This document shows, one piece after another, positions 10,120-62,710 of a stretch of DNA of 64,000 nucleotides; within the stretch, counting starts at the first letter, position 1; each line of letters opens with the position of its first letter. This stretch comes from Acidobacteriota bacterium (GTDB taxonomy: Bacteria; Actinomycetota; Acidimicrobiia; Acidimicrobiales; Ilumatobacteraceae), in the NCBI GenBank assembly GCA_018970175.1, contig JAGWWV010000005.1, positions 1-64,000 on the forward strand, given 5' to 3'. The position numbers were made by a program, and so were the translations under genes. The notes beneath the pieces are model-generated. The model searched no databases. It had not been told where the DNA came from and saw only the letters and a program-made list of their open reading frames with translations.

Positions 10120-10121
10120 GA

Positions 10122-10421: not shown

Positions 10422-10424
10422 CGG

Positions 10425-14242: not shown

Positions 14243-14777
14243 CGGGCTCCCCTTTTCGCTCGGCTTCTGCGGCAGCGGCAAGCGACACGGTGCCTTCGCC
14301 ACGCCAGCGCGCTCCCATGTCTTCGTTCTTGATGCGCTGTTGCAAGAGCACGATGCCCTCGAGAAGCGCCTCGGGTCGCGGCGGACATCCGGGTACGTAC
14401 ACATCGACCGGAATGATCTGGTCGACACCCTTCGTGACCGAGTAGCTGTCCCAGTAGGGCCCACCACAGTTCGCGCAGCTACCCATCGAAATGACGTACT
14501 TCGGTTCGGGCATCTGCTCGTAGAGGCGCTTGACCGCGGGCGCCATCTTGTCGGTAACCGTGCCCGAGATGACGACCAGGTCGGCTTGTCGCGGGCTGGC
14601 CGGCAGCGGAATGACGCCGAGTCGCATGACGTCGTAACGCGGTGAGCCGAATGCCGCACCCATTTCGATCGCGCAACAGGCCAGACCCCATTGGTAGACC
14701 CACAGCGAATACGAGCGTCCCAGGTTGAAAAGAGAGTTCAGCGATTTGGGCAGGCGGCCACGATCTACGAGTCCCAT
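14226..14777 (-). CDS. nuoB: NADH-quinone oxidoreductase subunit B (cluster 1)
   Basis: [19 protein letters not shown]...[35 protein letters not shown]. Confidence 0.95.
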
Positions 14778-17173: not shown

Positions 17174-18685
17174 TCAACGTCCGGCGAGGTTGATCACCTG
17201 GCGGGTCGCATCGAGCAACCAACCTGGCACCACACCAACCACCAGCGTGAAGACGACTGCCGCGGTGACCGCGAGACCGGAGAGAAACGGCACGCGCGGC
17301 GCGGCCCCTTCACCCTCGGCATCGTCCATCCATGCGCTCACCATGATGCGAAGGTAGAGATACGCACCGATGACCGACGAGAGCATCGCGATGATCGCGA
17401 TTGCATAACTGCGGGTTTCAACCGACGCCTGGATGACACCGAACTTCGCGACGAACCCCGACGTGAGCGGCATGCCGGCTTGGGCGAGAAGGAACACGGT
17501 GAGTGCAAGAGCAAGAGCCGGACGTCGACGTCCGAGTCCGCGCAGATCACCGAGATTCGACGCGACGTCGCCCTTGCCCGACACGAGACCGACGATGGTG
17601 AACGTTCCGATGACGAGCACCGTGTAGAGAAGCAGGTAAGTCATCGCCGAGGCAATGCCGTCGCTTGCACTTGGTGACGTCGTATGCGACGCAGCCTCGA
17701 CCCCGAGAAGAATGAATCCGGCGTGGCTGATTGACGAGTACGCGAGCATGCGCTTGACGTTGGTTTGTGTGACCGCCAGAACGGAGCCGACGACCAGACT
17801 GAGGACGGCGAGCACCCACACCACGGGACGCCAATCGTCGACGCGACTTTCGAGGGCGGTCACGCTGATGCGCAGGAACGCGGCGAACGCGGCGGTCTTG
17901 CCGGCCGACGCCATGAACGACGTCACCGGCGTCGGTGCGCCTTGGTAGACGTCGGGTGTCCACACCTGGAACGGCACCGCGGCAACCTTGAAGGCCAGGC
18001 CGACGAGAAGCAACCCGATTCCGACCAACAACAAGACGTCGTTGCGCGGGAACACCTGCGACGTCGACAGGGTCTCCATGATGCGACCGAGGTTCGTGTG
18101 GCTCGTTGCTCCGTAAATGAGGGCGATGCCGTACAGGAAGAACGCCGATGAAAAACCGCCGAGGATGAAGTACTTGAGCCCGGCTTCCTGGCTTTCTTCG
18201 CGGCGCCTGTTGCTCGCCGCGAGAACGTAGAGGGCAAGGCTCAGGGTTTCGAGACCGAGGAACAAGACGACGAGGTCCTGCGAGGCGACCATCACGATGC
18301 CGCCGATTGCGGCTGCGAGGTACAGCACGAACAATTCAGGCCCGTCCTCGTTTTCGCGTACGAGGTAGTCGCTGGTCGTCAGGCTGGCCAGGAGCACCGC
18401 AATACAGATGGTGATGGTGCCGAGAACCGCGAAGTGGTCGAATGCAAGCGCGTCGCCGATGATCGTCTCGGGCTTGCCGTCACTCAGGTTGTCCCACAAG
18501 AAGAAACAAAAGACGATTGCGGTCGCAGCGGTTGCCGCACTGACGATGCCGTACAGACCGCGCGGCCACTGCGGAAGCAGCGATCCGAACAGCATGAGAA
18601 TGCACGCGCCGGCCAGCAGTGTGAGGAGCGGGCTGAGGGTGAACCACGGAATCGAGGGTCCGACAAGGGTTTCTGCTGCGAACAT
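17174..18685 (-). CDS. nuoN: NADH-quinone oxidoreductase subunit N (cluster 2)
   Basis: FQVWTPDVYQGAPTPVTSFMASAGKTAAFAAFLR motif. Confidence 0.94.
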   Translation of the reverse strand: MFAAETLVGPSIPWFTLSPLLTLLAGACILMLFGSLLPQWPRGLYGIVSAATAATAIVFCFFLWDNLSDGKPETIIGDALAFDHFAVLGTITICIAVLLASLTTSDYLVRENEDGPELFVLYLAAAIGGIVMVASQDLVVLFLGLETLSLALYVLAASNRRREESQEAGLKYFILGGFSSAFFLYGIALIYGATSHTNLGRIMETLSTSQVFPRNDVLLLVGIGLLLVGLAFKVAAVPFQVWTPDVYQGAPTPVTSFMASAGKTAAFAAFLRISVTALESRVDDWRPVVWVLAVLSLVVGSVLAVTQTNVKRMLAYSSISHAGFILLGVEAASHTTSPSASDGIASAMTYLLLYTVLVIGTFTIVGLVSGKGDVASNLGDLRGLGRRRPALALALTVFLLAQAGMPLTSGFVAKFGVIQASVETRSYAIAIIAMLSSVIGAYLYLRIMVSAWMDDAEGEGAAPRVPFLSGLAVTAAVVFTLVVGVVPGWLLDATRQVINLAGR

Positions 18686-18687
18686 GC

Positions 18688-20295
18688 TCAGCCTCCGTGC
18701 CCTTCGGACTTCTCATCCGACTTCTTGTCGGACGAGTGGTCGACGGGTGCGATTTCCTTCTCGGTGAACTCGAGGTCGCGACCCGTACGTTCCTCGACGT
18801 GGGTGACGAGGGCCTTCACACTCGGCTCGATGCGATCGAGCATCGGCTTCGGGAAGACACCGGTGAAGACGATCGCCGCGATGAATGCAAGGAGGAGCAT
18901 CCCTTCCCGTGGACGAAGCTCTTCGAAAGTCGAGTTTGCTTCGTCGGGTTCGCCATGGAAAACACGTTGGTAGGCCCACAGCAAATAGAGCGCCGCGAGG
19001 ATGACACCGGTGGCGCCGATGACGACCCACCAGCGAGCGTTGCCGAACGATCCGATGAGGATGAGGAACTCTCCGACGAAACCGTTGAGGCCGGGCACGC
19101 CGATCGAAGACAGCATGACCACCATGAACGCCGCCGCAAAGATCGGCGCCACGCTCTGCAGGCCCTTCAGTTCCGAAATCTCCCGGGTGTGGCGACGCTC
19201 GTAGATCATGCCAACCAGCAAGAAGAGTGCGCCGGTGGAAACGCCGTGGTTCACCATCTGCATCACGCCACCCGTGATCGCCTGCGACGTGAAGGCGAAC
19301 GTACCGAGGACGATGAACCCGAGGTGCGCGACGGACGAGTATGCGACGAGTCGCTTCAGGTCCTTTTGCATCGTGGCTGCGATCGCGCCCCACAGAATGC
19401 CCACGACGGCAAGCGTGAGGAAAAGTGGTCGCGCCCACACCGACGCCTCGGGGAAGAGGTAAAGACCGAAACGCAGGAAGCCGTAGGTACCCAACTTCAA
19501 CAAGACACCGGCGAGAATGACCGAACCGCCGGTCGGCGCCTGCGTGTGCGCATCGGGCAGCCAGGTGTGCAGCGGGAAGAGCGGCACCTTGACGGCGAAT
19601 GCGATGGCGAACGCCATGAAGAGCCAACGCCCGGTCGAGGTTGCGAAGTCGGCGCCCTCCCCGAGCTTCACGAGATCGAACGTGACGTAACCGAGGCTGT
19701 TCTTTGCGAGAACCGCCGTCGCGATGATGCCGACCAGCATGAAGGCCGAACCGAACATCGTGTACAGGAAGAACTTCGTCGCGGCGTAGACGCGTTGGTC
19801 GTAGCCCCAGCCACCGATGAGGAAGTACATCGGCACGAGAACGATTTCGAAGAAGAGGAAGAAGAGGAAGAGGTCGAGGCTGATGAAACTTCCCATCACA
19901 CCGGCCTCGAGGACCAGCATCCATCCGAGGTATCGCTTGTGATCGTGGTGCGGGTCGATGCCGGCGATGACGAGCGGAAAGAGGAAGCCCGTCAGTACGA
20001 CGAGGAAGAGGGAAATACCGTCGACACCGACGTGCCAGCCGATGCCCCAGTCACGGATCCATGGGTGCTGCGACACGAACTGGAATCCGGCGTCGGCAGT
20101 TTCGAACGACGAAAGAAGCCAGACGCTGAGGCCCGCCGTGATGGTGCTCGCGACAAGGGCGACGAACTTGGTCGACTCGGGTCGACGGTTGCTCGTGAGA
20201 ATGGTGAGGATGCCGCCGATCGCCGGGACGAGAACGAGCGCCGTCAGGATCGGAAACGAGAGACTCGCGCCGTGAGCTGCTTCTGCGGCGTACAT
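18688..20295 (-). CDS. nuoM: NADH-quinone oxidoreductase subunit M (cluster 2)
   Basis: LHTWLPDAHTQAPTGGSVILAGVLLKLGTYGFLRFGL; start refined to MYAAEAAHG. Confidence 0.95.
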   Translation of the reverse strand: MYAAEAAHGASLSFPILTALVLVPAIGGILTILTSNRRPESTKFVALVASTITAGLSVWLLSSFETADAGFQFVSQHPWIRDWGIGWHVGVDGISLFLVVLTGFLFPLVIAGIDPHHDHKRYLGWMLVLEAGVMGSFISLDLFLFFLFFEIVLVPMYFLIGGWGYDQRVYAATKFFLYTMFGSAFMLVGIIATAVLAKNSLGYVTFDLVKLGEGADFATSTGRWLFMAFAIAFAVKVPLFPLHTWLPDAHTQAPTGGSVILAGVLLKLGTYGFLRFGLYLFPEASVWARPLFLTLAVVGILWGAIAATMQKDLKRLVAYSSVAHLGFIVLGTFAFTSQAITGGVMQMVNHGVSTGALFLLVGMIYERRHTREISELKGLQSVAPIFAAAFMVVMLSSIGVPGLNGFVGEFLILIGSFGNARWWVVIGATGVILAALYLLWAYQRVFHGEPDEANSTFEELRPREGMLLLAFIAAIVFTGVFPKPMLDRIEPSVKALVTHVEERTGRDLEFTEKEIAPVDHSSDKKSDEKSEGHGG

Positions 20296-22205
20296 CAGGC
20301 GATCCCCCTGTAGACGAACCAAACCAGCATGACGAGCACCGCGATTGCGATGATCGCCGCGTAGGCACGAACGAATCCGCTCTGCACGCGTCGGGTGACG
20401 CCGCTCGCCGATCGGACCGCGACCCCGGTTCCGCGCACCGCACCATCGATGACCTTCGCATCGGCCCATGCGACGGCATCGAACGCCCTGCGTCCGGGAC
20501 CACCCATGAAGTTCGAGACGAGACGGTCGTAGAACCAACCGTTTGCGAGGAGCTCGGGCTCGATCGCCTTCACCTTCTTCTTCGCATACACCGAGACGGC
20601 TGCGGCGATTCCGGCCAAGGCAACGAGGATTGCAACGCCCATGAGCACGTACTTGTTGTCATAGGCCCATGAACCCTTGATGCTCGCTTCGCCGTGTTCG
20701 ATGACGGGTTCGAGCCACTTCTCCAGGAAATGCAGGTCCTTGGTGAACGGCAGCTGCAGGGCGCCACCGACGATGGAAAGGCCGGCGAGAACGACGAGCG
20801 GCAGCAACATGATTCGCGGGCTCTCGTGCGGCTTGAAGTCGCCGTGAGCACCGTGTTCTTCACTGTGGTCGTTCCAGCGAGCCTCACCGAAGAACACCAT
20901 GATGACCTGACGGGTCATGTAGAAGGCGGTGAGCAACGCGGTCACCAAACCGACCACGTAGAGCGCCCTGTTGTTGGCGTACACGTAGAGGAGAATTTCG
21001 TCCTTCGACCAGAACCCGGCGAACGGCGGCACTCCGGCAATCGCCAGCCAGCCGATGATGAAGGTTACGGCGGTGACCGGCATCAACTTGCGAAGCGCTC
21101 CCATGCGTCGCATGTCTTGTTCGTGGTGCATGCCATGGATGACCGAACCCGAACCCAGGAAGAGCAGGGCCTTGAAGAAGGCATGGGTGACCATGTGGAA
21201 GATCGCCGCTACGTATGCGCCCGAGCCGACGGCAAGGAACATGTAACCGAGCTGCGAGACCGTCGAATACGCGAGCACCTTCTTGATGTCGTTCTGCGCG
21301 ACTGCGATGGTTGCCGCAAAGAGCGCCGTTGCCGCGCCCACCACCGCGATGATCATCGGGGCCCATGTGTAGGCCTCGTGGATGACGGGGTTCATTCGTG
21401 TCATCAGGAATACACCCGCGGTCACCATGGTCGCCGCGTGGATGAGGGCGGAAACCGGGGTGGGACCTTCCATCGCGTCTGGCAACCAGATGTAGAGAGG
21501 CAACTGCGCGCTCTTTCCGCACGCTCCGACGAAGAGCATGAGCGCAATGGCCGTCGCGGTCACCTGACTGAGCGAGCCACCGATCGCGGCATCGTTGATT
21601 CCCTTGTACGACAGCGTTCCGACCGAGGCAAACGCGAGGAACATGGCGGTCATGACGCCCCAGTCACCCACACGGTTGGTGACGAAGGCCTTCTTGCCGG
21701 CGGTGGCCGCACTCTCGCGCGTGTGCCAGAAGGAGATGAGGAAGTACGAGCACGTGCCGACTCCCTCCCAACCGAGGAACGTAACGAGAAGGTTTTCGCC
21801 GAGTACGAGCATCAGCATCGAAAAGGCGAACAAGTTGAGGTAGATGAAGAACTTCGAGAACTTCGGATCGCCGTGCATGTAGCCGACGGCGTAGAGGTGA
21901 ATGAGCGTGCCGATTCCGGTGACGAAGAGTGCCATCGTGATCGACAGCGGATCGGCGAGGAACGCCATCTTGACTTCGAGCGAACCCACCGGGATCCAAG
22001 TGAACAAGTCGATGACGTGCGAGCGCTCTTCCGCACTCTTCGACAGCATGTCGAAGAACGTGAGGGCGGTGACCACGAACGCTCCCCCGCACATTGCCGC
22101 CGCCAGGTATCCGGCGCGGGGCTCACCCAACCTGCGTCCGAAGAGCACGAGCAGGAGGAAACCGGCAAGCGGCAGAGCGGGGATCAACCAGACGACGTCG
22201 AGCAT
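20295..22205 (-). CDS. nuoL: NADH-quinone oxidoreductase subunit L (cluster 2)
   Basis: LYIWLPDAMEGPTPVSALIHAATMVTAGVFLMTR. Confidence 0.95.
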   Translation of the reverse strand: MLDVVWLIPALPLAGFLLLVLFGRRLGEPRAGYLAAAMCGGAFVVTALTFFDMLSKSAEERSHVIDLFTWIPVGSLEVKMAFLADPLSITMALFVTGIGTLIHLYAVGYMHGDPKFSKFFIYLNLFAFSMLMLVLGENLLVTFLGWEGVGTCSYFLISFWHTRESAATAGKKAFVTNRVGDWGVMTAMFLAFASVGTLSYKGINDAAIGGSLSQVTATAIALMLFVGACGKSAQLPLYIWLPDAMEGPTPVSALIHAATMVTAGVFLMTRMNPVIHEAYTWAPMIIAVVGAATALFAATIAVAQNDIKKVLAYSTVSQLGYMFLAVGSGAYVAAIFHMVTHAFFKALLFLGSGSVIHGMHHEQDMRRMGALRKLMPVTAVTFIIGWLAIAGVPPFAGFWSKDEILLYVYANNRALYVVGLVTALLTAFYMTRQVIMVFFGEARWNDHSEEHGAHGDFKPHESPRIMLLPLVVLAGLSIVGGALQLPFTKDLHFLEKWLEPVIEHGEASIKGSWAYDNKYVLMGVAILVALAGIAAAVSVYAKKKVKAIEPELLANGWFYDRLVSNFMGGPGRRAFDAVAWADAKVIDGAVRGTGVAVRSASGVTRRVQSGFVRAYAAIIAIAVLVMLVWFVYRGIA

Positions 22206-22209
22206 GGAT

Positions 22210-22539
22210 CTAACCCTTCAGCGCCGCGAGGTCGTCGGCTGTCGCCTGCTGACGGCGACGCATGATGGACACGATGATGCCGAGACCGACAACGACCTCG
22301 GCCGCGGCAACGACGAGGACGAAGAAAACGGCCGTCTGGCCGTCGATGTCGGTGAGTTCCGTGGCGAGCGCGACGAACGTGAGGTTCACGGCGTTCAACA
22401 TGAGCTCGATGCACATGAACATGATGAGCGGGTTGCGGCGAACGAGAACGCCGATCATGCCGATCGCAAACAGACCCGCTGCGAGAACCAGATACCAGGT
22501 CGTGGTGGGCACCACTGCGGCCGCAATCATGCCAATCAT
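22210..22539 (-). CDS. nuoK: NADH-quinone oxidoreductase subunit K (cluster 2)
   Basis: [30 protein letters not shown]. Confidence 0.95.
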
Positions 22540-23078
22540 GCGGAGGTCCTGTCGGACTTGCGGCGACGTGCGAGAACGACGGTTCCGACGACGGCGACAA
22601 TGAGAAGAACTGAGGTCAATTCGAAGGCCACGACGTAGTCCCCGAAGATCGACCGTGCGATCTGACGGATGTTTCCGTCGGGATCCTGCAGGTTCGCAAC
22701 TTGAACACCGTCACCCTTGAATCTGAACGACTCGCGCGCACGGACGACAGCGGTCGTGAGAACCGCGAACACTCCGAGACCCAGGATCACGGCAAGTGGA
22801 CGCTGAATCCGGCCGAGTGGCTCGGTACGGAGGTCTTCGGCACGGTCGACGCCGAGCAGCATGATCACGAAGAGGAAGAGGACGACGATCGCGCCCGCGT
22901 AAACGATCACCTGAACCGCGGCGAGAAAGTTCGCTTCGCGCGAAACGAACAACACCGCGATACCAAAGAGGGTGAGAATCATGCTGAGGGCCGCGTGAAC
23001 CGGATTCGAGCGCAACACGACACCAAGCGCGCCGACGAGAACCATGAGCGCGGCGCAGACGAAGACGAACAACTCCAT
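22536..23078 (-). CDS. nuoJ: NADH-quinone oxidoreductase subunit J (cluster 2)
   Basis: [53 protein letters not shown]. Confidence 0.94.
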
Positions 23079-23720
23079 TCAGCGACCGTCCCGATCGGTT
23101 TGCGCCGGCTCGGCCGCACGGATGCCATGGCCGAGCTCGCCGCTCCACGCCACGATGCCTTCGAAATCGGCATCGCCGCTGGGTGACGTTGCACGCATCC
23201 AGCCCGACGTGTGCTGGTCCTCCCCCGGCCGCCAGTCTTCCCAGGGCAAGTGCTGGGGCTTGCCCGAATCGTCGACGAGCAACTCGGACTTGGTGTAGAT
23301 CGCGTCGCGACGGTTCGTGAACGAGAACTCGAAGAGCTTGGTTTCGGTGATCGCTTCGGTCGGACAGGCCTCGACGCACATGTCGCAATGGATGCAGCGG
23401 AGATAGTTGATTTCGTAGACGAAACCGAAGCGTTCGCCCGGTGACGTCGGATCGGCGGGGTCGTTGTCCTTGCCGCGCACGTAGATGCACTTCGCCGGAC
23501 ACACGCCGGCACACAGTTCGCAGCCGATGCACTTCTCCATGCCGTCTTCGTAACGGTTGAGAACGTGCCGGCCATGGAGGCGCTCGGGCTTGTCGATCTT
23601 TTCGTCGTGCTTTTCCTTCTTGCCACGACGGAACATGCGCCCACCCGAGTATTCGGTGGTCACACGGTTGCGCTTGCCGTGCTGGCGGACCGTGACGAGG
23701 AATCCTCCGAGATAACCCAT
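23079..23720 (-). CDS. nuoI: NADH-quinone oxidoreductase subunit I (cluster 2)
   Basis: [40 protein letters not shown]. Confidence 0.95.
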
Positions 23721-24953
23721 CTAGAACTGCACCCCCTCGGCTTCGCGGTTGCGGTCACTCGACCGGAAAGCGAGCTGCATCATGATGAACGCGATGATGA
23801 TCACCGCGAGTGACAAGGGCACGACAAGCCACTGATCCCAGCCACGATCGTCGGCGAGCCGCTGCGCGGCGAGGAGCATGAACCAGCCGAGCGATGCGGG
23901 GATGAGGAACTTCCATCCGAGGTCCATCAGTTGGTCGTAACGGAAACGCGGAAGCGTGCCGCGGAACCACACGTAGATGTAGAGGAAGACCAGCACCTTG
24001 AGGAGCAGCCACACCGTGCCCTCGAGGGCGTTCGGGATGAGCGGGATGTCGAGCGTCGTGTCACCGATCGTGATCGGCTGCGGGCCACCGAAGAACAAGG
24101 TCACGATGAACGCCGACATCGTGATCGTGTTCATGAATTCGGCAAGGAAGAAGAGGGCGAACCGAATGGACGAGTACTCGGTGTTGAAACCGCCAACCAG
24201 TTCCTGCTCGGCTTCGACGAGGTCGAACGGTGGGCGGTTCAGTTCGGCAGTCGCAGAGACGAGGAAGATGAGGAATGGAACGACGCCTGTCGCGACGAGG
24301 TTCCACGACCCGATCGACGACTGTGCGTCGACGATGCCGCTCGTCGAGAGCGTCCCGCAGACGAGAATGACCGCGGCGAGCGAAAGACCGAGTGACGCCT
24401 CGTAACTGACCATCTGCGCCGACGCGCGGACCGAGCCGAGAAGCGGATACTTCGAACCGCTTGACCAACCCGCAAGCATGATGCCGTAGACCGCGATCGA
24501 CGAGATGGCGAGTGCGAAAAGAACGCCGACGGGCGGATCGGCGAGCTGGACTCGCGTCGTTTCACCGAACCAGGTGACGAATCCCCCGTTGCCGTCACGG
24601 AAGTCCCCGCCGAGCGGAATGATGGCGAACGCCAGAAACGCCGGAACGAACGAGAGATACGGGGCCAGACGGAACACGAACTTGTCGGCCTTTTCGGGAA
24701 GCAGATCTTCCTTGAAGAACAACTTGATGCCGTCGGCGAGCGTTTGCAACAGACCGAAGGGGCCGGCTTTGTTGGGACCGATGCGGTTCTGCATGCCGGC
24801 GATCGCCTTGCGCTCGAACCACACCATCAGCATCGTCGCCACGAGTCCGACGACGAACACGACCAACACCTTCATCAAGACGATGAGCAGCGGAGTCCAG
24901 AGAAGGTCACCGTCGAGGAGCGGGTCGATCGCAAGAAACGAGGGAACGTTCAC
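23721..24953 (-). CDS. nuoH: NADH-quinone oxidoreductase subunit H (cluster 2)
   Basis: MQNRIGPNKAGPFGLLQTLADGIKLFFKEDLLPEKADKF; ELNRPPFDLVEAEQELVGGFNTEYSS. Confidence 0.95.
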   Translation of the reverse strand: MNVPSFLAIDPLLDGDLLWTPLLIVLMKVLVVFVVGLVATMLMVWFERKAIAGMQNRIGPNKAGPFGLLQTLADGIKLFFKEDLLPEKADKFVFRLAPYLSFVPAFLAFAIIPLGGDFRDGNGGFVTWFGETTRVQLADPPVGVLFALAISSIAVYGIMLAGWSSGSKYPLLGSVRASAQMVSYEASLGLSLAAVILVCGTLSTSGIVDAQSSIGSWNLVATGVVPFLIFLVSATAELNRPPFDLVEAEQELVGGFNTEYSSIRFALFFLAEFMNTITMSAFIVTLFFGGPQPITIGDTTLDIPLIPNALEGTVWLLLKVLVFLYIYVWFRGTLPRFRYDQLMDLGWKFLIPASLGWFMLLAAQRLADDRGWDQWLVVPLSLAVIIIAFIMMQLAFRSSDRNREAEGVQF

Positions 24954-27280
24954 TTCAGGTTCTCCACTCGCACGTCGATCACGGGTTGGTCGCTACTGAT
25001 GAGCTCGCGGATGTCGGCACCGGTCTGGTTGAACGGCACCCACGCAGTGCCCTTCATCACGCCGACGTCGGCGCGCACGGGCAACACGATCGATGTTCGT
25101 GAGGTCGACACACGCACGTCGCGACCCGCAGCGGTACCGATGGCCTCGATGTCGCGCGGGTTGAGGTGGATGGCGGCCCCCGAACCGAGGTTTGCAAGGG
25201 ACTTGCTGGTCACCGTGCCGACGGCGCGGTCGTACATCTTCCGCGACACGACGAGTCGAAGGTCGTACGAATTGCGATCGGGGGCGACCAGGTTCGTCGC
25301 GCTGAGCGCGGCACGACCCGACGACTCCATCGGTTGCGCCGCGAGATCGGTCAGCGAGCCCACGCCGAGGTCGTGACCCAGACGTTCGGCGAGTTCGATC
25401 GCAACCATCCAGTCGGGGCGGCTCGTCCCCTTTGCGGTGACGCGCTGGGACAGACAGCTGATTCCACCCTCGATGTTCGTGACGCTGCCCGTGCGCTCGG
25501 CGTATGCCGACACCGGAAGAAGAACGTCGGCGAGCACCGACGAAGCCGAGGGGAACGTGTCGAGAGCGACGATGCTGCGCGCCGACGCCAGGGCACGGCG
25601 GGCCAGGTCGGCATCGGGTGCGTCACTCAACGGGTCGGCGCCGAGAAGAACCAGACACTCGACGCGACCGTCGGCAGCGGCGCGGAGAATGTCGCGCGCA
25701 TCACCCGAGGTCGGAGCAAGACCCTGTTCGAGGGCACCGCGTACGTTGCCGCGCCGCAACACCGGAAGAACCCGAAGCGCCGGAATGCCGGCAGCGAGTG
25801 CGTTGTACGCCTGAAGCGTGAAGTCGACCGACTCGGCAAGATTGCTTCGTCCGAGGACGACCACGACATTGCCACCGGCGAGCTGCCCCGCGATCGACGG
25901 ATCCGCGAGCGCAGCCTTGACCGCTGCAACCTGATTGCCGGGTTCGTAGGGGACGAATTTCCACGCATGTCGCGTGAGACCCGAGGCCTTCGGTGCGATT
26001 TCGATGATGCGCACACCGCGCTTGGTTGCCGCGTCACGAAGGCGCAGATGAAGAACCGGCAACTCTTCTTTCAGGTCGGGAGCGAGGAGAACAATGGTTC
26101 CCGCCGACGCCGCGTCGTCGATGGATGCCTGCGGCAATTCAAAGATCTCGGCGGGCAGTCCGTCGTCGATCTGCGGGTCGCGCAACGAAACCCCGATCGC
26201 ATCGGCCAGCATCGACCACGCGCGGACATCCTCGTTCGCCAAACGAGCGCCACCGAGAATTGCCACGCTTTCCGCGCCACGCGACGAGACTGCGAGACGA
26301 ATCGCACGGGCTGCGGCCTCGAGTGCATTTGCCCACGACGTTTGCGCAAGACCCTTGTCGGTCTTCAGCATCGGACTGGTCAACCGCTCTTCGCTTCCGA
26401 TCGACTCGAAGTTGAAGCGTCCACGGTCGCACAGCCAACCCCAGTTCAAGGTTCCCTCGCCGGGAACATCGGGGTTGTCGATGCCTTGCAAACGAACGAT
26501 CTGATCGCGGCTCGATTGAACCGACACGCGACAACCAACGGCACAGGTCGTGCAGGTGCTCTCGGTTTCTTCGAGATCCCATGGACGCGCCTTGAAGCGG
26601 TAGGGCTTCGCCGTCAACGCACCAACGGGGCAGATCTGCACCGTGTTGCCCGAGAAGTACGAAGCGAACGGTTCGTCGGGGAAAGTGAGCACCTGTGTGT
26701 TGTTGCCACGGTGGGTGAACGAGATGAGCGGGTCACCCGCGACGTCGCTTGCGAAACGTGTGCACCGGTCGCAGAGAATGCAGCGCTCGCGGTCGAGATA
26801 AACGAGGTCGCTGATCGCGATCGGCTTTTCGTAGTGACGCTTTTCTTCGACGTAGCGACTCTCGCCGGGTCCATGGGAGAACGCCTGGTCCTGCAGGGGG
26901 CACTCGCCGCCCTTGTCGCACACCGGGCAGTCGAGCGGGTGATTCGCGAGCAACAACTCGAGGACGCCCTCTTGTGCGCGCTTCACCTGGTCGGTTTCGG
27001 TACGAACGACCTGACCGTCGGCAACCGGGGTCATGCACGACACGACCATCATCGGTCCGCGTGGTCCGTCGACTTCGACTATGCACTGCCGACACATCCC
27101 GACCGACTTCATGCGCGGGTGGTAGCAGAACCGCGGGATGAAGTCGCCCGCACGATCGGCTGCCGCAATGATGAATTCACCCTTGCGAGCCGCCACCTCG
27201 CGGCCGTTCAAGTTGATGGTCACCGCATTCGGGTCGACGATCACTTCCTGGGCGTCGCTTGATTCCGTGGTGCTCATCAC
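24950..27280 (-). CDS. nuoG: NADH-quinone oxidoreductase subunit G (cluster 2)
   Basis: N-terminal [2Fe-2S] FCYHPRMKSVGMCRQCIVEVDG, CPVCDKGGECPLQDQ, CILCDRCTRF, N7-type CTTCAVGC...C. Confidence 0.94.
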   Translation of the reverse strand: MMSTTESSDAQEVIVDPNAVTINLNGREVAARKGEFIIAAADRAGDFIPRFCYHPRMKSVGMCRQCIVEVDGPRGPMMVVSCMTPVADGQVVRTETDQVKRAQEGVLELLLANHPLDCPVCDKGGECPLQDQAFSHGPGESRYVEEKRHYEKPIAISDLVYLDRERCILCDRCTRFASDVAGDPLISFTHRGNNTQVLTFPDEPFASYFSGNTVQICPVGALTAKPYRFKARPWDLEETESTCTTCAVGCRVSVQSSRDQIVRLQGIDNPDVPGEGTLNWGWLCDRGRFNFESIGSEERLTSPMLKTDKGLAQTSWANALEAAARAIRLAVSSRGAESVAILGGARLANEDVRAWSMLADAIGVSLRDPQIDDGLPAEIFELPQASIDDAASAGTIVLLAPDLKEELPVLHLRLRDAATKRGVRIIEIAPKASGLTRHAWKFVPYEPGNQVAAVKAALADPSIAGQLAGGNVVVVLGRSNLAESVDFTLQAYNALAAGIPALRVLPVLRRGNVRGALEQGLAPTSGDARDILRAAADGRVECLVLLGADPLSDAPDADLARRALASARSIVALDTFPSASSVLADVLLPVSAYAERTGSVTNIEGGISCLSQRVTAKGTSRPDWMVAIELAERLGHDLGVGSLTDLAAQPMESSGRAALSATNLVAPDRNSYDLRLVVSRKMYDRAVGTVTSKSLANLGSGAAIHLNPRDIEAIGTAAGRDVRVSTSRTSIVLPVRADVGVMKGTAWVPFNQTGADIRELISSDQPVIDVRVENLK

Positions 27281-28674
27281 TCACCGCCCACGGCAGTGAC
27301 GGGAATCCGGTTGCGCGTGGTGACCCGCGCTGCGAACTCTTCGGGGAACAGTGTGAGTGCCGAGTTGACCGGCGCGTATGCCGACGGTCCGACGAAGCAG
27401 ATCGTCGTCATCTTGTAGGGGAAGGGAACGGCACCGAGACCGAGTCGTTCGCTCGACGCGTGCGGGAAATCACCCGGACAGATGGACGTTCCCACTTCGA
27501 TGAGTTGTTCGAGGTCGGCATCCGTGCCGTTGCCCTCGACGATGCGGGTGAGAATGCGTTCGAGCCAGGTGCCACCCTCGCGACACGGCGTGCACTTTCC
27601 GCACGATTCGTGTGCGTAGAAACGCGTGAGCGTGAGCGCGGCGTGGGGAATATCGGTGGTCTCGTCCATCACCATGATGGCGCCGGAACCGAGCATCGAC
27701 CCGGCGGGACCAACTTGGCTTGCCTCGAACGGAAGGTCGAGCTGGTCGGGGAGGAACCACGGTGCGGATCCACCGCCCGGGACGAACGCCTTCAGTTTGT
27801 TGCCGTTGCGAATGCCCTGACAGAACTCGTCGCCGTAGAGGAGATCCCTGAACGTCGTCGTGCCGTTGACGATTTCATAGACACCGGGACGCTTGACGTG
27901 ACCCGACACGGCGACCATGCGCGTTCCGGGCGACGTTTTCGTGCCGATTGCCGTGTACGCCTCGGCACCGTTGCGCGCGAGCCACGGCAGGTTCGCCAAC
28001 GTCTCGACGTTGTTCACGATCGTGGGCTGGCCGTACAAACCGATTGCCGCCGGGAAGTAGGGCGGCTTGAGTCGTGGCATTCCGCGGTTGCCTTCGAGAC
28101 TTTCGATCAGGGCGGTTTCCTCGCCCACGACGTACGCTCCCGCACCCCAGTGCAGGACGATGTCGACGGAGAAGTTCGAACCGAGAATGTTTCGTCCCAC
28201 GTAACCCGCGGCGTAGGCCTCGTTCAGTGCCGCGGCGACGCGTTCCTGGGCCGTCGCCATCTCGCCGCGGATGTACAGGAAACAGCGCGTGAGTCCGGCG
28301 GCGTAGCACGCAATGAGACAACCTTCGATCAACTGGTGCGGGTCGCGCTCCATGAGGAGTCGGTCCTTGTAGGTGCCCGGCTCGCTCTCGTCCCCGTTCA
28401 CGACGAGATACCGCGGGAAGTTCCCCTGGGGCATGAGACCCCACTTGGTGCCGGCCGGGAATCCCGCGCCGCCACGACCGAGAACGGTTGCGTTCTTCAC
28501 CTCTTCGTGCACGTCGGCGGCCGGCCGCGCCAACGCGGCGCGCAGACCCTTGTAACCATCGGTGGCGAGGTAGCGCTCGAGCGTGTGGGAGTCGGCGTAT
28601 TCGAAGCGCGAGGTCACGATCTTCGGACGGTCACCGGCAATGAACCCGGCGGCATGTGCGTAGGTACCGGTCAC
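27277..28674 (-). CDS. nuoF: NADH-quinone oxidoreductase subunit F (cluster 2)
   Basis: LGRGGAGFPAGTKWGLMP, NGDESEPGTYKDR, GAGAYVVGEETALIESLEG, ESCGKCTPCREG; GTG start at 28674 overlaps nuoE. Confidence 0.95.
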   Translation of the reverse strand: MTGTYAHAAGFIAGDRPKIVTSRFEYADSHTLERYLATDGYKGLRAALARPAADVHEEVKNATVLGRGGAGFPAGTKWGLMPQGNFPRYLVVNGDESEPGTYKDRLLMERDPHQLIEGCLIACYAAGLTRCFLYIRGEMATAQERVAAALNEAYAAGYVGRNILGSNFSVDIVLHWGAGAYVVGEETALIESLEGNRGMPRLKPPYFPAAIGLYGQPTIVNNVETLANLPWLARNGAEAYTAIGTKTSPGTRMVAVSGHVKRPGVYEIVNGTTTFRDLLYGDEFCQGIRNGNKLKAFVPGGGSAPWFLPDQLDLPFEASQVGPAGSMLGSGAIMVMDETTDIPHAALTLTRFYAHESCGKCTPCREGGTWLERILTRIVEGNGTDADLEQLIEVGTSICPGDFPHASSERLGLGAVPFPYKMTTICFVGPSAYAPVNSALTLFPEEFAARVTTRNRIPVTAVGGE

Positions 28675-29285
28675 AGCGCGGCCTTTCCGTTCATCCATGC
28701 GGGCTCCTGGCCGGGAGCCTCGGGGGGCACCGCGCCGACCGAGCGATCGGCGGGAATGTGTTGACGCACCCGCGCAAGGGTTCCGTGCGGCGGAATTTCC
28801 TCGGCCAACTTTCCGGCAGCCAGGTCGTCGATGAGGGCATCGAGTTGCTGGGGCGTCATGCGGAAGCGGTAGCGATAGTTGACCTGCAGACACGGTGCCT
28901 CGGTGCACGCGGCCTGGCACTCGGCGTGTTCGATCGTGAACAAACCGTCTGCAGTCGTGCCGCCGGCCTTGATGCCCAGGCGGTGCTCGGCATGGTGGAG
29001 CAGCTCCTCGGATCCCATGAGCGCACACGACATGGTTCCGCAGATGTTGATCACGTACTTGCCGACCGGTTCGAACTTGAACATTTCGTAGAACGACGCC
29101 GTGCCGAGAACCTCAGCGGGGGTGACTCCGACCAGTTCGGCAATGTGCTTCATCGCCGCATCGGTGACGTAGCCGTTCTGCTCCTGCGAGAGGTGCAGCA
29201 GTGGAATGAGTGCGGACTTGGGCCGCGGATAACGCGCGATGATTTCGTTCGCGATTGCGACGTTGGTGTCGGTCAGCCGGCTCAT
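28671..29285 (-). CDS. nuoE: NADH-quinone oxidoreductase subunit E (cluster 2)
   Basis: Thioredoxin-like [2Fe-2S]: ICGTMSCALMGSEELL...IEHAECQAACTEAPCLQVN. Confidence 0.94.
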   Translation of the reverse strand: MSRLTDTNVAIANEIIARYPRPKSALIPLLHLSQEQNGYVTDAAMKHIAELVGVTPAEVLGTASFYEMFKFEPVGKYVINICGTMSCALMGSEELLHHAEHRLGIKAGGTTADGLFTIEHAECQAACTEAPCLQVNYRYRFRMTPQQLDALIDDLAAGKLAEEIPPHGTLARVRQHIPADRSVGAVPPEAPGQEPAWMNGKAAL

Positions 29286-30631
29286 CGGTCGACCTCGCCG
29301 AGAACGGGATCGACCGAAGAGATGACCGCAACGGCGTCGGCAACGAGGCCGTCGCGCATCATGTGCGGAAGACACTGGATGTTGACGAAAGAAGGCGCGC
29401 GCATGTGCATGCGGTACGGCTTCGACGAGCCGTCGCTCACGATGTAGCAGCCGATCTCGCCGCGGGGGCTCTCGATACCCACGTAGACCTCGCCCTCGGG
29501 GACCTTGAACCCCTCGGTGAAGATCTTGAAGTGGTGGATCAAGGCTTCCATCGACTCGTCGATGCGCGCACGCGGCGGCGGAGTGACCTTCTTGTCCTGG
29601 ATGCGGTAGTCGCCCGACGGCATCCGATCGAGAATCTGGCGCACGATCTTCATCGACTCACGGATCTCGTTGAGGCGGATCGCGTAACGATCGAAGGCAT
29701 CGCCGTACGAACCGACGATCACGTCGAAGTCGACTTCGGTGTAACGCAGGTAGGGCATGTCGCGACGCAGGTCCCACGGGACGCCGGTCGAACGCAGAAT
29801 CGGTCCGGTTGCGCCGAGTGCAACCGCTTCCTGGGCCGTGATGACGCCGACGCCCTGCAGACGCTCGCGCCAGATTGGCTGCTCGGTCATCAAGATGTCG
29901 TACTCGGCAAGACGCTCGGGGAGCCGGTCGAGAATGTCGAGAACGTCGTCGCGCCAACCCGCGGGGAGATCGGCCGCGAGTCCGCCCGGGCGGATGAAGT
30001 TGTGGTTCATCCGCAGACCCGTGACCTTCTGGAAGAACCGGAGGACTTCCTCGCGTTCACGCCAGCCGTAGATCATCATCGACACCGCACCGATGTCCAT
30101 GCCGTTCGTCGCAAGGAAGAGCAGGTGACTGCTCATGCGATTCAGTTCCGACAACAGCATGCGCATCCACACCGCACGCTCGGGAATGTCGCCGTCGATT
30201 CCGAGAAGCTTTTCGACCGCCATCGAAAAGACGAGTTCGTTGTTCAGGGGCGACAGGTAGTCCATGCGCGTGACGTTCGTGCCGCCCTGCATGAAGGTGA
30301 GGTCCTCGCCGGTCTTTTCCATACCGGTGTGCAGATACCCGATGATCGGCTTGCAACGCAATACGCGTTCACCCTGGAGTTCGAGCATGAGGCGCAGAAC
30401 TCCATGGGTGCTGGGGTGTTGCGGACCCATGTTGATGATCATCGACTGATCCTCGGGAACTTCCGTCGGGTCGACGTTCTCGGTGGCCAGTGCGGCGGCC
30501 TGTGATTCGGACATTCGTAGCACGGACCCGACTTCGCGCATCACTTCACGCGCCGTCAATTCGCTGCGCGAACGCATCTCTTGGTTGCCTTCGGCGGTGG
30601 CCCCGGGTGTCGCGGTAATGAGATCGGTCAC
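29282..30631 (-). CDS. nuoD: NADH-quinone oxidoreductase subunit D (cluster 2; HTG-type)
   Basis: NMGPQHPSTHGVLRLMLELQGERVLRCKPIIGYLHTGMEKTGE...LRSTGVPWDLRRDMPY...GEVDR; GTG start at 30631. Confidence 0.95.
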   Translation of the reverse strand: MTDLITATPGATAEGNQEMRSRSELTAREVMREVGSVLRMSESQAAALATENVDPTEVPEDQSMIINMGPQHPSTHGVLRLMLELQGERVLRCKPIIGYLHTGMEKTGEDLTFMQGGTNVTRMDYLSPLNNELVFSMAVEKLLGIDGDIPERAVWMRMLLSELNRMSSHLLFLATNGMDIGAVSMMIYGWREREEVLRFFQKVTGLRMNHNFIRPGGLAADLPAGWRDDVLDILDRLPERLAEYDILMTEQPIWRERLQGVGVITAQEAVALGATGPILRSTGVPWDLRRDMPYLRYTEVDFDVIVGSYGDAFDRYAIRLNEIRESMKIVRQILDRMPSGDYRIQDKKVTPPPRARIDESMEALIHHFKIFTEGFKVPEGEVYVGIESPRGEIGCYIVSDGSSKPYRMHMRAPSFVNIQCLPHMMRDGLVADAVAVISSVDPVLGEVDR

Positions 30632-31131
30632 GACGGACTCCCCTTGAATTGAACGGGAATGCGACCAATCGCATAGTCCTTTCGCAGCGGGTGGCCGTTC
30701 CAGTCTTCGGGCATGAGAATTCTCGACGGGTCGGGGTGGCCGGTGAAGGTGATACCGAACATGTCGTAGACCTCGCGCTCCATCGCTTCCGTTCCGGGAT
30801 AGAGATCGAACGCCGAGGGCAAGGTTGCGTCTGCTTCGGGTACCGCCACGCGGACGCGAATCCGCTCGCGACGTTCGAGCGAAATCAGATTGAGAACGAC
30901 TTCGAACCGTTCGCTTGGCTTGCCGACCCGCGAGGCGTACGTCGAATAGTCGACCGCAGTGAGATCGGTGCACAAGACGAAGGAATCGTCAACCAAAGCC
31001 TTCAACGTCGCGACGTAGTTTTCGCGTGTCGGATGAATGACCACCTGACCCCGCGAGTCGGTGACGTGACAGCCGTAACGCGTCGGGGCCGATTCAGGTG
31101 CGTGGTTGGTCACTGCGGTGTCCTCGCTCAT
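30628..31131 (-). CDS. nuoC: NADH-quinone oxidoreductase subunit C (cluster 2)
   Basis: EREVYDMFGITFTGHPDPSRILMPEDWNGHPLRKDYAIG. Confidence 0.94.
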   Translation of the reverse strand: MSEDTAVTNHAPESAPTRYGCHVTDSRGQVVIHPTRENYVATLKALVDDSFVLCTDLTAVDYSTYASRVGKPSERFEVVLNLISLERRERIRVRVAVPEADATLPSAFDLYPGTEAMEREVYDMFGITFTGHPDPSRILMPEDWNGHPLRKDYAIGRIPVQFKGSPS

Positions 31132-31133
31132 CG

Positions 31134-31718
31134 TCAACGACTTCCGAGAATGACGGGCGTACTGACCGACCCGGCGGGGATTTCGTGGATGTGAACGTTG
31201 GCGCCCGCACCGGTTTCCTTGCGGCGGCGCAGGATCTCTCCGTCTTCGATCAACTGGTGGAGGGTCTCGATCGCGTGGATCAAGGTTTCGGGCGTCGGAG
31301 GGCAACCCGGTGCGTACACATCGACCGGCACGACCTGATCGACACCCTGGACGATCGCGTAGTTGTTGAACATTCCGCCGCTCGATGCGCACACGCCCAT
31401 CGAGATGACCCACTTCGGCTCCATCATCTGGTCGTAGACCTGACGAAGAACCGGGGCCATCTTTTGGCTGACGCGACCGGCGACGATCATGATGTCGGCC
31501 TGACGCGGGGAAGCACGGAAAACCTCCATGCCGAACCGGGCGAGGTCGTAGTGCGCGGCACCGGTCGCCATCATTTCGATGGCGCAGCACGCGAGACCGA
31601 ACGACGCCGGCCACGACGACCGTGAACGTGACCAGTTGACCAGGTCTTCGATACGCCCCGTGAGGAAGTTGTGCTGCAGGCCACCGAGGCCCTCATCGAG
31701 AACGTCACGCACGCCCAT
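31134..31718 (-). CDS. nuoB: NADH-quinone oxidoreductase subunit B (cluster 2)
   Basis: [43 protein letters not shown]...[34 protein letters not shown]. Confidence 0.95.
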
Positions 31719-49997: not shown

Positions 49998-51212
49998 CTA
50001 CCGACAGGCGACGCGTTCGCGGGTGGTGACGTCGGTGTAGGCACGGCGCAACCTCGCGGCCGCGAAGCTCCACGTGTAGCGCCGCGCCTTGTCGGCAGCG
50101 CGCACACCCATCGCACCGGCGGCAACCGGATTCGCGATGATTGCATTCACGTGCAGCGCGAACACGTCGGGGTCGCGGTCGGCGACCAAGTGACCCGTGA
50201 CCCCGTCATCGACGATGGTGATGAGGCCGCCCACTCCGCTGGCAACCACGGGCACTCCACAGGCCGCGGCCTCGAGCGCAACGAGACCGAAACTCTCGCT
50301 GCGTGACGGCACGATGACCACGTCGGCGGCGCGGTAATACGTCGACAAGATGTGGTGGGCCTGCGGCGCCACGAAGTCGATGCGGTCGACGACGCCGAGC
50401 GATTCGGCAAGAGCATGCACCCGGGTGACTTCGGCGTGACCGTCGGCTCCGCTTGCGCCGCCCACTACGACCAGCCGGGCACGTGGATTGTCGAGCCTCG
50501 CGAGCGTCTCCACCGCCACGTCGAGACCCTTCAGGGGTTGGATTCGACCGACGAAGAGCATCACCGGAACGTCGGACGGAATACGCAGCGCATGGCGTGC
50601 GCCACGCTTTTCACCCGGCGCGAAGAACGCGTGCTCGACACCGGGGGCGACGATCTCGATCGACCCGGGCGGATTGCCGTAGAGCGAACGGAACTGGCGC
50701 TCTTCTTCGGTGCACGACACACAGATCGCGTCGGTACAACCGATGATCGACGCTTCGGCTTCTTCGCGCGACGCGGGTTCGGGGTCTCCGCCCTGGGCCT
50801 TCACCCGCGCAAAAGTGTGAAAGGTCATCACGAGCGGCAGGTCGAGTTCGTGCTTCAGACGGTGGCCGGCCATTCCTGAGAGCCAGTAATTCGCGTGCAA
50901 CACATCGACCCCTCCCGAGGCCTCAATGTGCCTGCGCACACCGTCGGCGAACGGATCGACGACGGAGAGGAGGTCGTGCTTCGGCAGATCGAAGTCACCT
51001 GCTTCGACGTGAACGACGCGATGGTTCGGCTCGACGTTGACGACTTCGGGCAGGCCCGGTCGCCACGCACGGGTGTAAGTGGTGCAATCGAGGCCGGCGT
51101 GTGCCAACGCGGAGACGAGTTCCCGCACGTAGACGTTCATGCCACCGCCGTCACCGACGCCCGGCTGGGCGAGCGGCGAGGTGTGCATCGAGAGAACGGC
51201 GACGCGCTTCAT
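49998..51212 (-). CDS. mshA: D-inositol-3-phosphate glycosyltransferase (mycothiol biosynthesis)
   Basis: SMHTSPLAQPGVGDGGGMNVYVRELVSALAHAG; GT4 motifs FVGRIQPLKGLDVAVETLA, VPSRSESFGLVALEAAACGVPVVAS. Confidence 0.92.
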   Translation of the reverse strand: MKRVAVLSMHTSPLAQPGVGDGGGMNVYVRELVSALAHAGLDCTTYTRAWRPGLPEVVNVEPNHRVVHVEAGDFDLPKHDLLSVVDPFADGVRRHIEASGGVDVLHANYWLSGMAGHRLKHELDLPLVMTFHTFARVKAQGGDPEPASREEAEASIIGCTDAICVSCTEEERQFRSLYGNPPGSIEIVAPGVEHAFFAPGEKRGARHALRIPSDVPVMLFVGRIQPLKGLDVAVETLARLDNPRARLVVVGGASGADGHAEVTRVHALAESLGVVDRIDFVAPQAHHILSTYYRAADVVIVPSRSESFGLVALEAAACGVPVVASGVGGLITIVDDGVTGHLVADRDPDVFALHVNAIIANPVAAGAMGVRAADKARRYTWSFAAARLRRAYTDVTTRERVACR

Positions 51213-51213
51213 G

Positions 51214-51576
51214 TCAGCCGGCCGCCGGATTGACGTACGTGCGGTACACGCTGAGGAGAGTGTTCTTCTGTTCGATCGACAGCAACGGGTCGGCGAGAAC
51301 AGCCTCTTCGACCGACGGAGCCGGAGCGGTTGCGCGCGCACTGTCACCGTCGAGAAAGCCGGCCCGGACGTACAACGTCTCGGCCGAGACGTGCAGAGCA
51401 CGGGCAATCTGCTGGAGGATCTCCGCCGACGGCTTGCGCAGTCCGCGCTCGATCTGTGAGAGGTACGGATTCGACACGCCAGCGAGCCGCGAAAGATCGC
51501 GGATCGACTGCTGGGCAGCTTCGCGACGCTGACGAATGAAGTCACCGAGGTCGACGAGTCGCTTGTCCATCGGCAT
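51214..51576 (-). CDS. XRE-family helix-turn-helix regulator
   Basis: LGDFIRQRREAAQQSIRDLSRLAGVSNPYLSQIERGLRKPSAEILQQIARALHVSAETLYVRAG. Confidence 0.93.
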   Translation of the reverse strand: MPMDKRLVDLGDFIRQRREAAQQSIRDLSRLAGVSNPYLSQIERGLRKPSAEILQQIARALHVSAETLYVRAGFLDGDSARATAPAPSVEEAVLADPLLSIEQKNTLLSVYRTYVNPAAG

Positions 51577-51646: not shown

Positions 51647-52138
51647 TCAGTCGAGAAGGCTGTCGACCGTTGCGCCGCCACTCTTGTAGCGGTCGACGAG
51701 CTCGCGACTCAACGCGTCGATACGAGCGAACAAATCCCTGCGATCGGCCGACTGGGCGGACTCGAACCCCGACAATGCGGCCTCGAGGGAGGTCAGTTCG
51801 ACTTCGTCGAGATCGGCAAAGTCGGCGAAGTGGAGACGATCACAGATCTCTGTCAGTTCGACCACTCGGGGGTGGTCGGCGCTGACGTCGGTGTCACGTG
51901 GCGGTCGGATCGAACCCGCGCCTTGTTGTTGCCCGAAGACCGCCGCGAGTGCGCCAGGTTCGGCGGTCGCGTGCGAGCCGCTTCCACGACGGACCCGCTC
52001 TTCACGCACGATGTCGAGCCGGCCCTGCGCGATGCGACGAACGAACGACACCACGTCTTCTTCCTGCTGCAGACGAGCGCGCAACGCACGGAGCTCACCG
52101 AGCGACAGCGACGTCGGGTCGACGGATGCGTCCGACAA
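51647..52138 (-). CDS. rsiG: RsiG-like (aerial mycelium formation protein family) putative c-di-GMP-responsive anti-sigma factor
   Basis: LGELRALRARLQQEEDVVSFVRRIAQGRLDIVREE; two E(x)3S(x)2R(x)3(Q/x)(x)3D matches. Confidence 0.78.
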   Translation of the reverse strand: MSDASVDPTSLSLGELRALRARLQQEEDVVSFVRRIAQGRLDIVREERVRRGSGSHATAEPGALAAVFGQQQGAGSIRPPRDTDVSADHPRVVELTEICDRLHFADFADLDEVELTSLEAALSGFESAQSADRRDLFARIDALSRELVDRYKSGGATVDSLLD

Positions 52139-52168: not shown

Positions 52169-52408
52169 CTAGAACCCACCGGAAACCGGTGGGAGGACGG
52201 CCACCTCATCGGCTGCACACAGTGGCGCATCACGATGTGTTTCGTCGCCGTTGCACCACACGCGACAGGTAGCGAGCACCGCAACGAAACCGGCGCCATA
52301 CCGTTGGCTCGCTTCGTCCAACAGCGCACCCACGGTCGGTGCATCGATGACGTCCGAGCCCCGACCTGCGGCCTCGCGGGCGGCGGCAAAAAGACGCAGG
52401 GTCGCCAT
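52169..52408 (-). CDS. moaD: MoaD/ThiS-family ubiquitin-like sulfur carrier protein
   Basis: LRLFAAAREAAGRGSDVI...ADEVAVLPPVSGGF*. Confidence 0.85.
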   Translation of the reverse strand: MATLRLFAAAREAAGRGSDVIDAPTVGALLDEASQRYGAGFVAVLATCRVWCNGDETHRDAPLCAADEVAVLPPVSGGF

Positions 52409-61311: not shown

Positions 61312-61776
61312 TCACCGTACAGGCTTGTAGGCCCAGGCTTCGATTTCGACCTGGCCGCCGAACGGAAGGGATGCGACGCCGATCGTGCTGCGCGCCGGTC
61401 GGCTCTTGCCGAATCCCGCGACGTAGGCCTCGTTGAAGGTGGGGAACGTGTCCATGTCGGTGAGGAAACACAACGTCTTCTTCACGTCGTTGATCGTGAC
61501 TCCCGCCTCGGCGAGCCGGGCCTTCAGATTCACGACTGCCTGTGCGGTCTGTGCGGCAACGCCCTTGGCGAGCACGCCGTCCTTCAAACCCAGTTGGCCC
61601 GACACGATGACCCAATCACCCGCGCGCACAACCGGCGTGTACGGACCAACCGGTGCGGCGGCCTTCGGTGCCTTCGTTTTCTTCGTGGCTTTCTTTGCGG
61701 ACGTCTTCTTCACGGCTTTCTTTGCCGATGATTTCTTTGCCGTTGTTTTCTTGGTCACGGTCTTCTTCGCTGCCAT
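61312..61776 (-). CDS. RidA family protein with Lys/Ala-rich N-terminal tail
   Basis: APVGPYTPVVRAGDWVIVSGQLGLKDG...ARSTIGVASLPFGGQVEIEAWA; N-terminal MAAKKTVTKKTTAKKSSAKKAVKKTSAKKATKKTKAPKA. Confidence 0.9.
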   Translation of the reverse strand: MAAKKTVTKKTTAKKSSAKKAVKKTSAKKATKKTKAPKAAAPVGPYTPVVRAGDWVIVSGQLGLKDGVLAKGVAAQTAQAVVNLKARLAEAGVTINDVKKTLCFLTDMDTFPTFNEAYVAGFGKSRPARSTIGVASLPFGGQVEIEAWAYKPVR

Positions 61777-61798
61777 ACCGCAACCTTATAGTTCGGAC

Positions 61799-62710
61799 AT
61801 GGAGAATGTCTCTCGCACGGCTGGCCTGTCGCGACGACGGTTTCTCGCACGTGGTCTCGGAGCCGGCGCGGCCACGTTCTTCGCCCCCCAGATCCTCGCC
61901 GCGTGCGGCGGCGGAAGCAGTGGTGGTGCGGCCGATCTGGCGGGAATCAACCTCGTCAAAAGATTTCCCGGCGACATCCTCGTGCCGGGTCGACTGAGGC
62001 TGCCGTTCTCACTCGCCGACTCGAGTGGTGTTCTCACCGCCGACTCGACCACGGCGATTCCCGAGACACTCAGCTTCTTGATCACCGACATCGACGGCAA
62101 CGGCATCGGCTACGACGACCCATTCGTCGTGGAGTCCCACACCACCAATCTCCCCCAGCCGTACTGGCCCCTCGAACTCACAGTCGACGCGCCCGGCATC
62201 TACGTTGTGAATCTTGTCGGTAGCGACCAACCCGGGGCCTCGATCCAAGTGGTCGACCGCGAGGAAGTCACGGTTCCCCTCGTCGGCGACCCGCTTCCGC
62301 CGGTCGACACACCGACGACGGCCGATGCGCGCGACGTCGACCCGATCTGCACGCGCGAACCGGCGTGCCCTCTGCACGATGTGTCGCTTCGCGACGCGTT
62401 GACGATGGGCAAACCGGTCGCCTACCTCCTCGGCACCCCCGCGTACTGCCAAACGGGCACCTGTTCACCGGCCCTCGATGCGATTCTCCAAGTGCGGGAA
62501 AAAGTGAGGGACGCAGTGACGTTCATCCACGCCGAGATCTACACCGACCGAACCGCAGCGACTCCGGCGACCGCGGTGACGTCGTACAACATGACGTACG
62601 AGCCGGCACTCTTCATCACGGACACAACGGGAAAACTCACGGATCGACTCGACGCAATTTTCGATGCCGACGAAGTGCGGGCCGCGTTCACCCGCAACGG
62701 AATTAGCTGA
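61799..62710 (+). CDS. Tat-signal lipoprotein with a thioredoxin-like C-terminal region
   Basis: SRRRFLARGLGAGAATFFAPQILAAC Tat + lipobox; C-terminal PVAYLLGTPAYCQTGTCSPALDAIL...EPALFITDTTGKLTDRLDAIF. Confidence 0.78.
   Translation: MENVSRTAGLSRRRFLARGLGAGAATFFAPQILAACGGGSSGGAADLAGINLVKRFPGDILVPGRLRLPFSLADSSGVLTADSTTAIPETLSFLITDIDGNGIGYDDPFVVESHTTNLPQPYWPLELTVDAPGIYVVNLVGSDQPGASIQVVDREEVTVPLVGDPLPPVDTPTTADARDVDPICTREPACPLHDVSLRDALTMGKPVAYLLGTPAYCQTGTCSPALDAILQVREKVRDAVTFIHAEIYTDRTAATPATAVTSYNMTYEPALFITDTTGKLTDRLDAIFDADEVRAAFTRNGIS

Follow-up and report, generated by a model that had tools for sequence, protein, structure and literature searches.

A twin-motif RsiG and its probable WhiG partner in a freshwater actinobacterium of the order Acidimicrobiales, with a secreted SpoIID-type protein as candidate target

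The window, i.e., the whole stretch of 64,000 nucleotides analysed here, contains on its minus strand a short open reading frame with two predicted c-di-GMP-binding motifs, each situated on a long predicted helix. The features of this frame and of the adjacent genes are as follows.

51647..52138, minus strand: rsiG, encoding a twin-motif RsiG-like anti-sigma factor of 163 aa, with an uncertain TTG start (Pfam, PDB match, AlphaFold model)
52013..52060, minus strand: c-di-GMP motif 1, EDVVSFVRRIAQGRLD, residues 27–42, an exact match to E(x)3S(x)2R(x)3Q(x)3D
51716..51763, minus strand: c-di-GMP motif 2, ESAQSADRRDLFARID, residues 126–141, in which Phe occupies the stacking (Q) position
51983..52102, minus strand: helix alpha1, residues 13–52, first half of the coiled coil (AlphaFold model)
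51683..51805, minus strand: long C-terminal helix (alpha5 in Streptomyces), residues 112–152, second half of the coiled coil (AlphaFold model)
51214..51576, minus strand: Cro/C1-type HTH regulator, the next gene downstream of rsiG and a conserved neighbour (Pfam HTH_3; synteny)
49998..51212, minus strand: MshA-like glycosyltransferase, a conserved rsiG neighbour across the order (TIGR03449, 379.7 bits, below the cut-off of 462.5; synteny)
52169..52408, minus strand: MoaD/ThiS-like frame of 79 aa just upstream of rsiG (gene prediction; function suggested by sequence only)

The frame and both motifs had been placed at these positions by the first-pass annotation, in agreement with the sequence of the minus strand. 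In most loci of the order that were compared, rsiG adjoins the HTH gene and the MshA-like gene. Immediately after rsiG in one relative (L155, G036:C3:546-572), an exact WhiG-type promoter precedes mshA by about 104 bp, which may reflect autoregulation or chance. Elsewhere in the window, two clusters of the NADH dehydrogenase (complex I) type, recognized by inspection, are localized close together on the minus strand (4565–14302 and 17174–31718), and one of them appears to be without some subunits. The predicted frame at 61607–62710 is of low complexity, with repeated FFADDFFA, and probably does not correspond to a real protein.

The identity of the frame as a twin-motif RsiG, as proposed in the first pass, is backed by a profile match, by a PDB match and by the predicted structure. 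The Pfam RsiG profile PF22802 matches it in two stretches (83.7 bits, E 7e-24, cut-off 27); no RsiG match was obtained for the frame from NCBIfam. In a sequence search of the PDB, the best match is RsiG of Streptomyces venezuelae (6pfj/6pfv; E 8e-11, residues 10–162), followed by Rubrobacter RsiG, which is matched by the first helix only. The AlphaFold model, built from 56 sequences, has a mean pLDDT of 89.4 and a pTM of 0.81, and forms an antiparallel coiled coil carrying both motifs. A Foldseek comparison of this model with the PDB gave four matches with E <0.001, all of them S. venezuelae RsiG chains from 6pfv and 6pfj (E 2e-5 to 3e-4, TM about 0.68), and the next match has an E-value of 1.5.

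In the 92,820 residues of all the window's six-frame open stretches of at least 60 aa, a single strict motif and two copies of the relaxed form E(x)3S(x)2R(x)7D are present, in each case within rsiG. When the RsiG protein is shuffled, 0.011% of the products contain two relaxed motifs; a chance origin of the motifs is rejected on the basis of these shuffles and of the window-wide counts. The 48-residue stretches around motifs 1 and 2 are 31% identical without gaps (15/48), in line with the intragenic duplication from which the twin-motif form has been proposed to originate, and the corresponding comparison within S. venezuelae RsiG gives 33% identity (PMC8325347). Coiled-coil matches are of low specificity and the frame is short, but a coiled-coil protein unrelated to RsiG, with motifs acquired by chance, is hardly credible in view of the Pfam and PDB scores, the RsiG-specific predicted fold, the motif residues that are invariant across the order, and the co-occurrence with WhiG.

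The genome assembly (2.25 Mb, 89.7% complete) contains a single copy of rsiG. Both the WhiG-like sigma factor, named in the first-pass annotation as decisive if absent, and the diguanylate cyclases sought along with it are present. One sigma factor of the FliA/WhiG class scores over the cut-off in this genome (259.9 bits vs. 189.6).

C56:7895-8632: whiG (FliA/WhiG-class profile, 259.9 bits)

The closest PDB match of its product is Streptomyces WhiG (237 bits vs. 162 bits for FliA), and the gene is localized in a comM-dprA-xerC-whiG-rpsB-tsf-pyrH-frr block, where gene names were assigned by inspection. In the crystal structure, c-di-GMP is contacted by residues K57, G61, and R62 of S. venezuelae WhiG (PMC8325347); all three are retained here as K38, G42, and R43. 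Within the WhiG group of the order, these positions are occupied by K in 19 of 20, G in 16 of 20, and R in all 20 sequences, whereas a second group of FliA-like sigma factors has neither the glycine (0/17) nor the arginine (0/17). This second group (about 174–206 bits) is found in many Acidimicrobiales and is below the cut-off in the window's genome. The genome also encodes two GGDEF-EAL proteins, with the sequence GGDEF in the first and SGDEF in the other, which are predicted to provide c-di-GMP synthesis.

RsiG was identified in 96 of 148 Acidimicrobiales genomes. WhiG, called at scores above 230 bits given that the scores split into two separate groups, is present in 85 of the 96 genomes with RsiG vs. 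3 of the 52 without it. GGDEF proteins are encoded in all 96 genomes of the former set vs. 31 of the 52 in the latter. The respective Fisher P-values, 1e-24 for WhiG and 1e-11 for GGDEF, ignore shared ancestry. The frame almost certainly encodes RsiG with WhiG as its partner, and it is a further RsiG of an already described type, from a freshwater Ilumatobacteraceae-type actinobacterium of the order Acidimicrobiales.

Two peculiarities of other RsiG loci are worth recording. In one genome (G080), RsiG loci were found at two positions, L049 (G080:C62:784-1275) and G080:C50:27272-27769; the contamination of this assembly is put at 5%, and the doubling may be an artefact. Two RsiG loci in one genome have been reported for Acidothermus only (PMC8325347). 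Records titled Bifidobacterium breve (L017, L018) contain an RsiG locus that is 64% identical to that of the window, with the same gene order, and are probably mislabelled MAGs.

The first-pass annotation had regarded the Q of the motif as optional. This is inaccurate, as the published motif has a base-stacking residue at this position, which is Q, with H in some cases for motif 1; the RsiG motif glutamines stack on guanine bases, and the Q to H substitution in motif 1 is stated to be the sole departure from the consensus (PMC8325347). In motif 2 of the window's RsiG, the E, S, R, and D are present, and Phe is the single departure from that consensus. Among 93 sequences (92 Acidimicrobiales RsiG and that of S. 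venezuelae), the Ser and the Arg never vary in either motif, and the stacking position of motif 1 is occupied by Q (84), H (8), or G (1). At the stacking position of motif 2, the 92 Acidimicrobiales proteins have His (56) or Phe (36) and never Gln, which is found in S. venezuelae only. A quick tree yielded at least six interchanges between Phe and His on supported branches, and 10 by parsimony. The simplest inference from this alignment is that an aromatic side chain, His or Phe, would perform the motif 2 stacking in Acidimicrobiales RsiG. The Phe is a clade variant, and there is an indication that the published RsiG motif has been drawn too narrowly at a single position, the residue that stacks in motif 2.

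It could be argued from the published consensus, which has Gln here and allows His solely in motif 1 (PMC8325347), that Phe has weakened or removed c-di-GMP binding at the second half-site, leaving an anti-sigma factor that is c-di-GMP-independent or differently tuned. We consider this improbable, as motif 2 of the window's RsiG retains its Glu, Ser, Arg, and Asp, a GGDEF protein is encoded in every genome with RsiG, and the consistent presence of His or Phe in 92 sequences, with at least six switches between them, is what would be expected if an aromatic stacker suffices. The window's RsiG is very probably c-di-GMP dependent, although its affinity for c-di-GMP could differ, because the Gln seen at the motif 2 stacking position in the solved structures is replaced by Phe.

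We then considered which genes such a WhiG might transcribe. Exact matches to TAAA-N14..16-GCCGATAA were found at 60 sites across the 148 Acidimicrobiales genomes, mostly with spacers of N15 or N16, and 39 of these sites are in genomes with WhiG. In the latter genomes, such sites precede genes of flagella (flhA, L156; flagellin, L176; likely flgB by inspection, L165), genes of type IV pili (type IV pilin, L164; pilM, L169), and a gene encoding a PAS-GGDEF diguanylate cyclase (L170). Many of the other exact sites in the order are likely due to chance. Pili and c-di-GMP enzymes are common to this set and to that of Rubrobacter, and flagella are added in Acidimicrobiales.

The window's genome contains no exact match to TAAA-N14..16-GCCGATAA. 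With at most two mismatches and the N16 spacer, 48 sites were found genome-wide vs. 33 in the reversed control, two of the sites having one mismatch. For the N15 spacer, the numbers were 32 vs. 60; with two mismatches there was no excess over the reversed control, and the matches were mostly situated in coding sequence. Since WhiG-type sites are not clearly enriched genome-wide, the regulon is small or degenerate.

The element TAAAGACTGCACCTTGGCGCGCCGAGAA at C8:18189, one of the two single-mismatch sites with the N16 spacer, deviates from the consensus at one position of 12. It is situated between genes, and its end is separated by 32 bp from the ATG of a gene encoding a secreted-looking protein of 785 aa with SpoIID and two peptidoglycan-binding domains, as well as a weak GDSL match below its cut-off. 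We collected SpoIID orthologues from the family and read 67 upstream regions in gene orientation. Twelve of these regions contain a site with at most one mismatch and 22 a site with at most two, whereas 200 permuted consensus sequences give means of 0.04 and 0.61, respectively, over the same 67 regions; the matches are concentrated at spacers N15 and N16. In the window's genus, a one-mismatch site precedes the SpoIID gene in eight of nine genomes, at 32–64 bp and with diverged spacers. Sites with one to three mismatches were observed in all seven genomes of genus g119, and sites with at most two in g116, g4, g5, g118, g129, and g132 as well. The promoter is absent upstream of the SpoIID gene in the remaining genome of the window's genus (G214) and in genera g117, g123, g135, and g131. 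Among individual genomes with both RsiG and WhiG, G134 also has the SpoIID promoter site, G102 has a three-mismatch candidate only, and G006 and G064 have no convincing site before the SpoIID gene.

Because eight of the nine genomes of the genus have a near-perfect WhiG promoter before the SpoIID gene, the target in the window's lineage is probably a cell-wall enzyme. That WhiG itself reads this gene is moderately likely, the predicted link between promoter and sigma factor being well supported but not proven.

Pili were considered as targets as well. Neither PilB nor PilT was found in the window's genome, and the two T2SSE ATPases over the cut-off are both of the Tad/CpaF type, leaving type IV pili unsupported as a target here. 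The same genome contains two Tad/Flp-type pilus loci (L085 and L086, on G000:C47); these were rejected as targets for want of a WhiG-type site upstream of the Tad genes.

Sequence, predicted fold, partner genes, residue conservation, and promoter sequences are established here, while we infer that RsiG binds and regulates WhiG, the best-supported direction of control being that already known for this pair. When loaded with c-di-GMP, RsiG would clamp WhiG. A fall in c-di-GMP would release the sigma factor, which would then transcribe from promoters of the TAAAG-N15-GCCGATAA type. In the window's genome, the best-supported target of released WhiG would be the secreted SpoIID/peptidoglycan-binding protein, the GCCGAGAA element being its predicted promoter and transcription presumably starting just downstream. 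Such a switch would probably act on the remodelling of the cell wall or on the state of the surface, and not on sporulation. No spore formation is known from the window's freshwater lineage. Taken together, the full explanation, an RsiG–WhiG c-di-GMP switch with a SpoIID-type wall target, is in our view quite likely.

Alternatively, the switch may operate as described while the SpoIID promoter is incidental or is read by another sigma factor, the actual regulon consisting of Tad-type pili or unknown genes. The absence of genome-wide promoter enrichment, the two Tad/Flp-type loci on C47, and the order-wide targets, which are mostly appendages, speak in favour of such a regulon. We nevertheless regard it as unlikely: the SpoIID site and its correct spacer are conserved between genera, while a permuted consensus gives almost no matches, no FliA-class sigma factor other than WhiG exceeds the cut-off in this genome, and the Tad genes are not preceded by any detected WhiG-type site.

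The switch with a SpoIID-type target can be compared with two characterized systems. The c-di-GMP-dependent anti-sigma factor of WhiG from S. venezuelae (6pfj, 6pfv) is about 30% identical to the window's RsiG, has the same predicted fold with twin motifs on two antiparallel long helices, and, as predicted here, acts with a WhiG whose c-di-GMP contacts are conserved. Its affinity for c-di-GMP has been given as 6.5 uM for RsiG alone and 0.39 uM in the presence of WhiG (PMC8325347). It differs in having Gln in motif 2 instead of Phe, and in that its targets are sporulation regulators, whereas the predicted target here is a SpoIID-type secreted protein. RsiG of Rubrobacter radiotolerans (PDB 7lq2-7lq4) shares motif 1 and comes from a non-sporulating actinobacterium, in which WhiG-type promoters precede genes for pili and diguanylate cyclases (PMC8325347). 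In contrast to the window's RsiG, with both motifs in one chain, it has one motif and forms a homodimer.

Implications of the twin-motif form need some qualification. The first-pass annotation had taken its occurrence in a lineage without known sporulation to imply another sigma factor target. The promoters do point to non-sporulation genes, but they would be read by an ordinary WhiG, and it is the genes under this sigma factor that appear to differ. The surprise was also overstated: twin-motif RsiG has already been reported in three of four Acidimicrobiales (PMC8325347, PNAS 2021), single-motif RsiG is limited to Rubrobacteria and Thermoleophilia with the twin-motif form normal elsewhere, and a pilus regulon of RsiG–WhiG has been demonstrated in the non-sporulating Rubrobacter (PMC8325347). 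The Acidimicrobiales proteins of that study are from the same order and of the same twin-motif form as the one described here, but that study gives no characterization of them; in the accessible part of the paper, neither the His/Phe state of motif 2 nor the target genes are described. New in this work are the order-wide distribution of RsiG with WhiG and GGDEF proteins, the presence of His or Phe and never Gln in motif 2, the exact promoters that precede genes for flagella, type IV pili, and a diguanylate cyclase in the order, and the SpoIID promoter at the level of the genus. We found no open-licence paper mentioning both Ilumatobacter and WhiG, and none that connects WhiG with a gene of the SpoIID type. 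Among the papers listed, a review on sporulation (PMC7985256) is the only one in which RsiG, WhiG, and SpoIID all occur.

RsiG–WhiG is the sole sigma/anti-sigma pair known as a target of c-di-GMP, and its known outputs are sporulation in Streptomyces and pili in Rubrobacter (PMC8325347). The SpoIID promoter provides a directly testable candidate WhiG promoter. If the assignment is true, this pair would have a third output in freshwater Acidimicrobiales, a wall enzyme of the SpoIID type, which would suggest a way for the switch to pass from surface to developmental roles and back.
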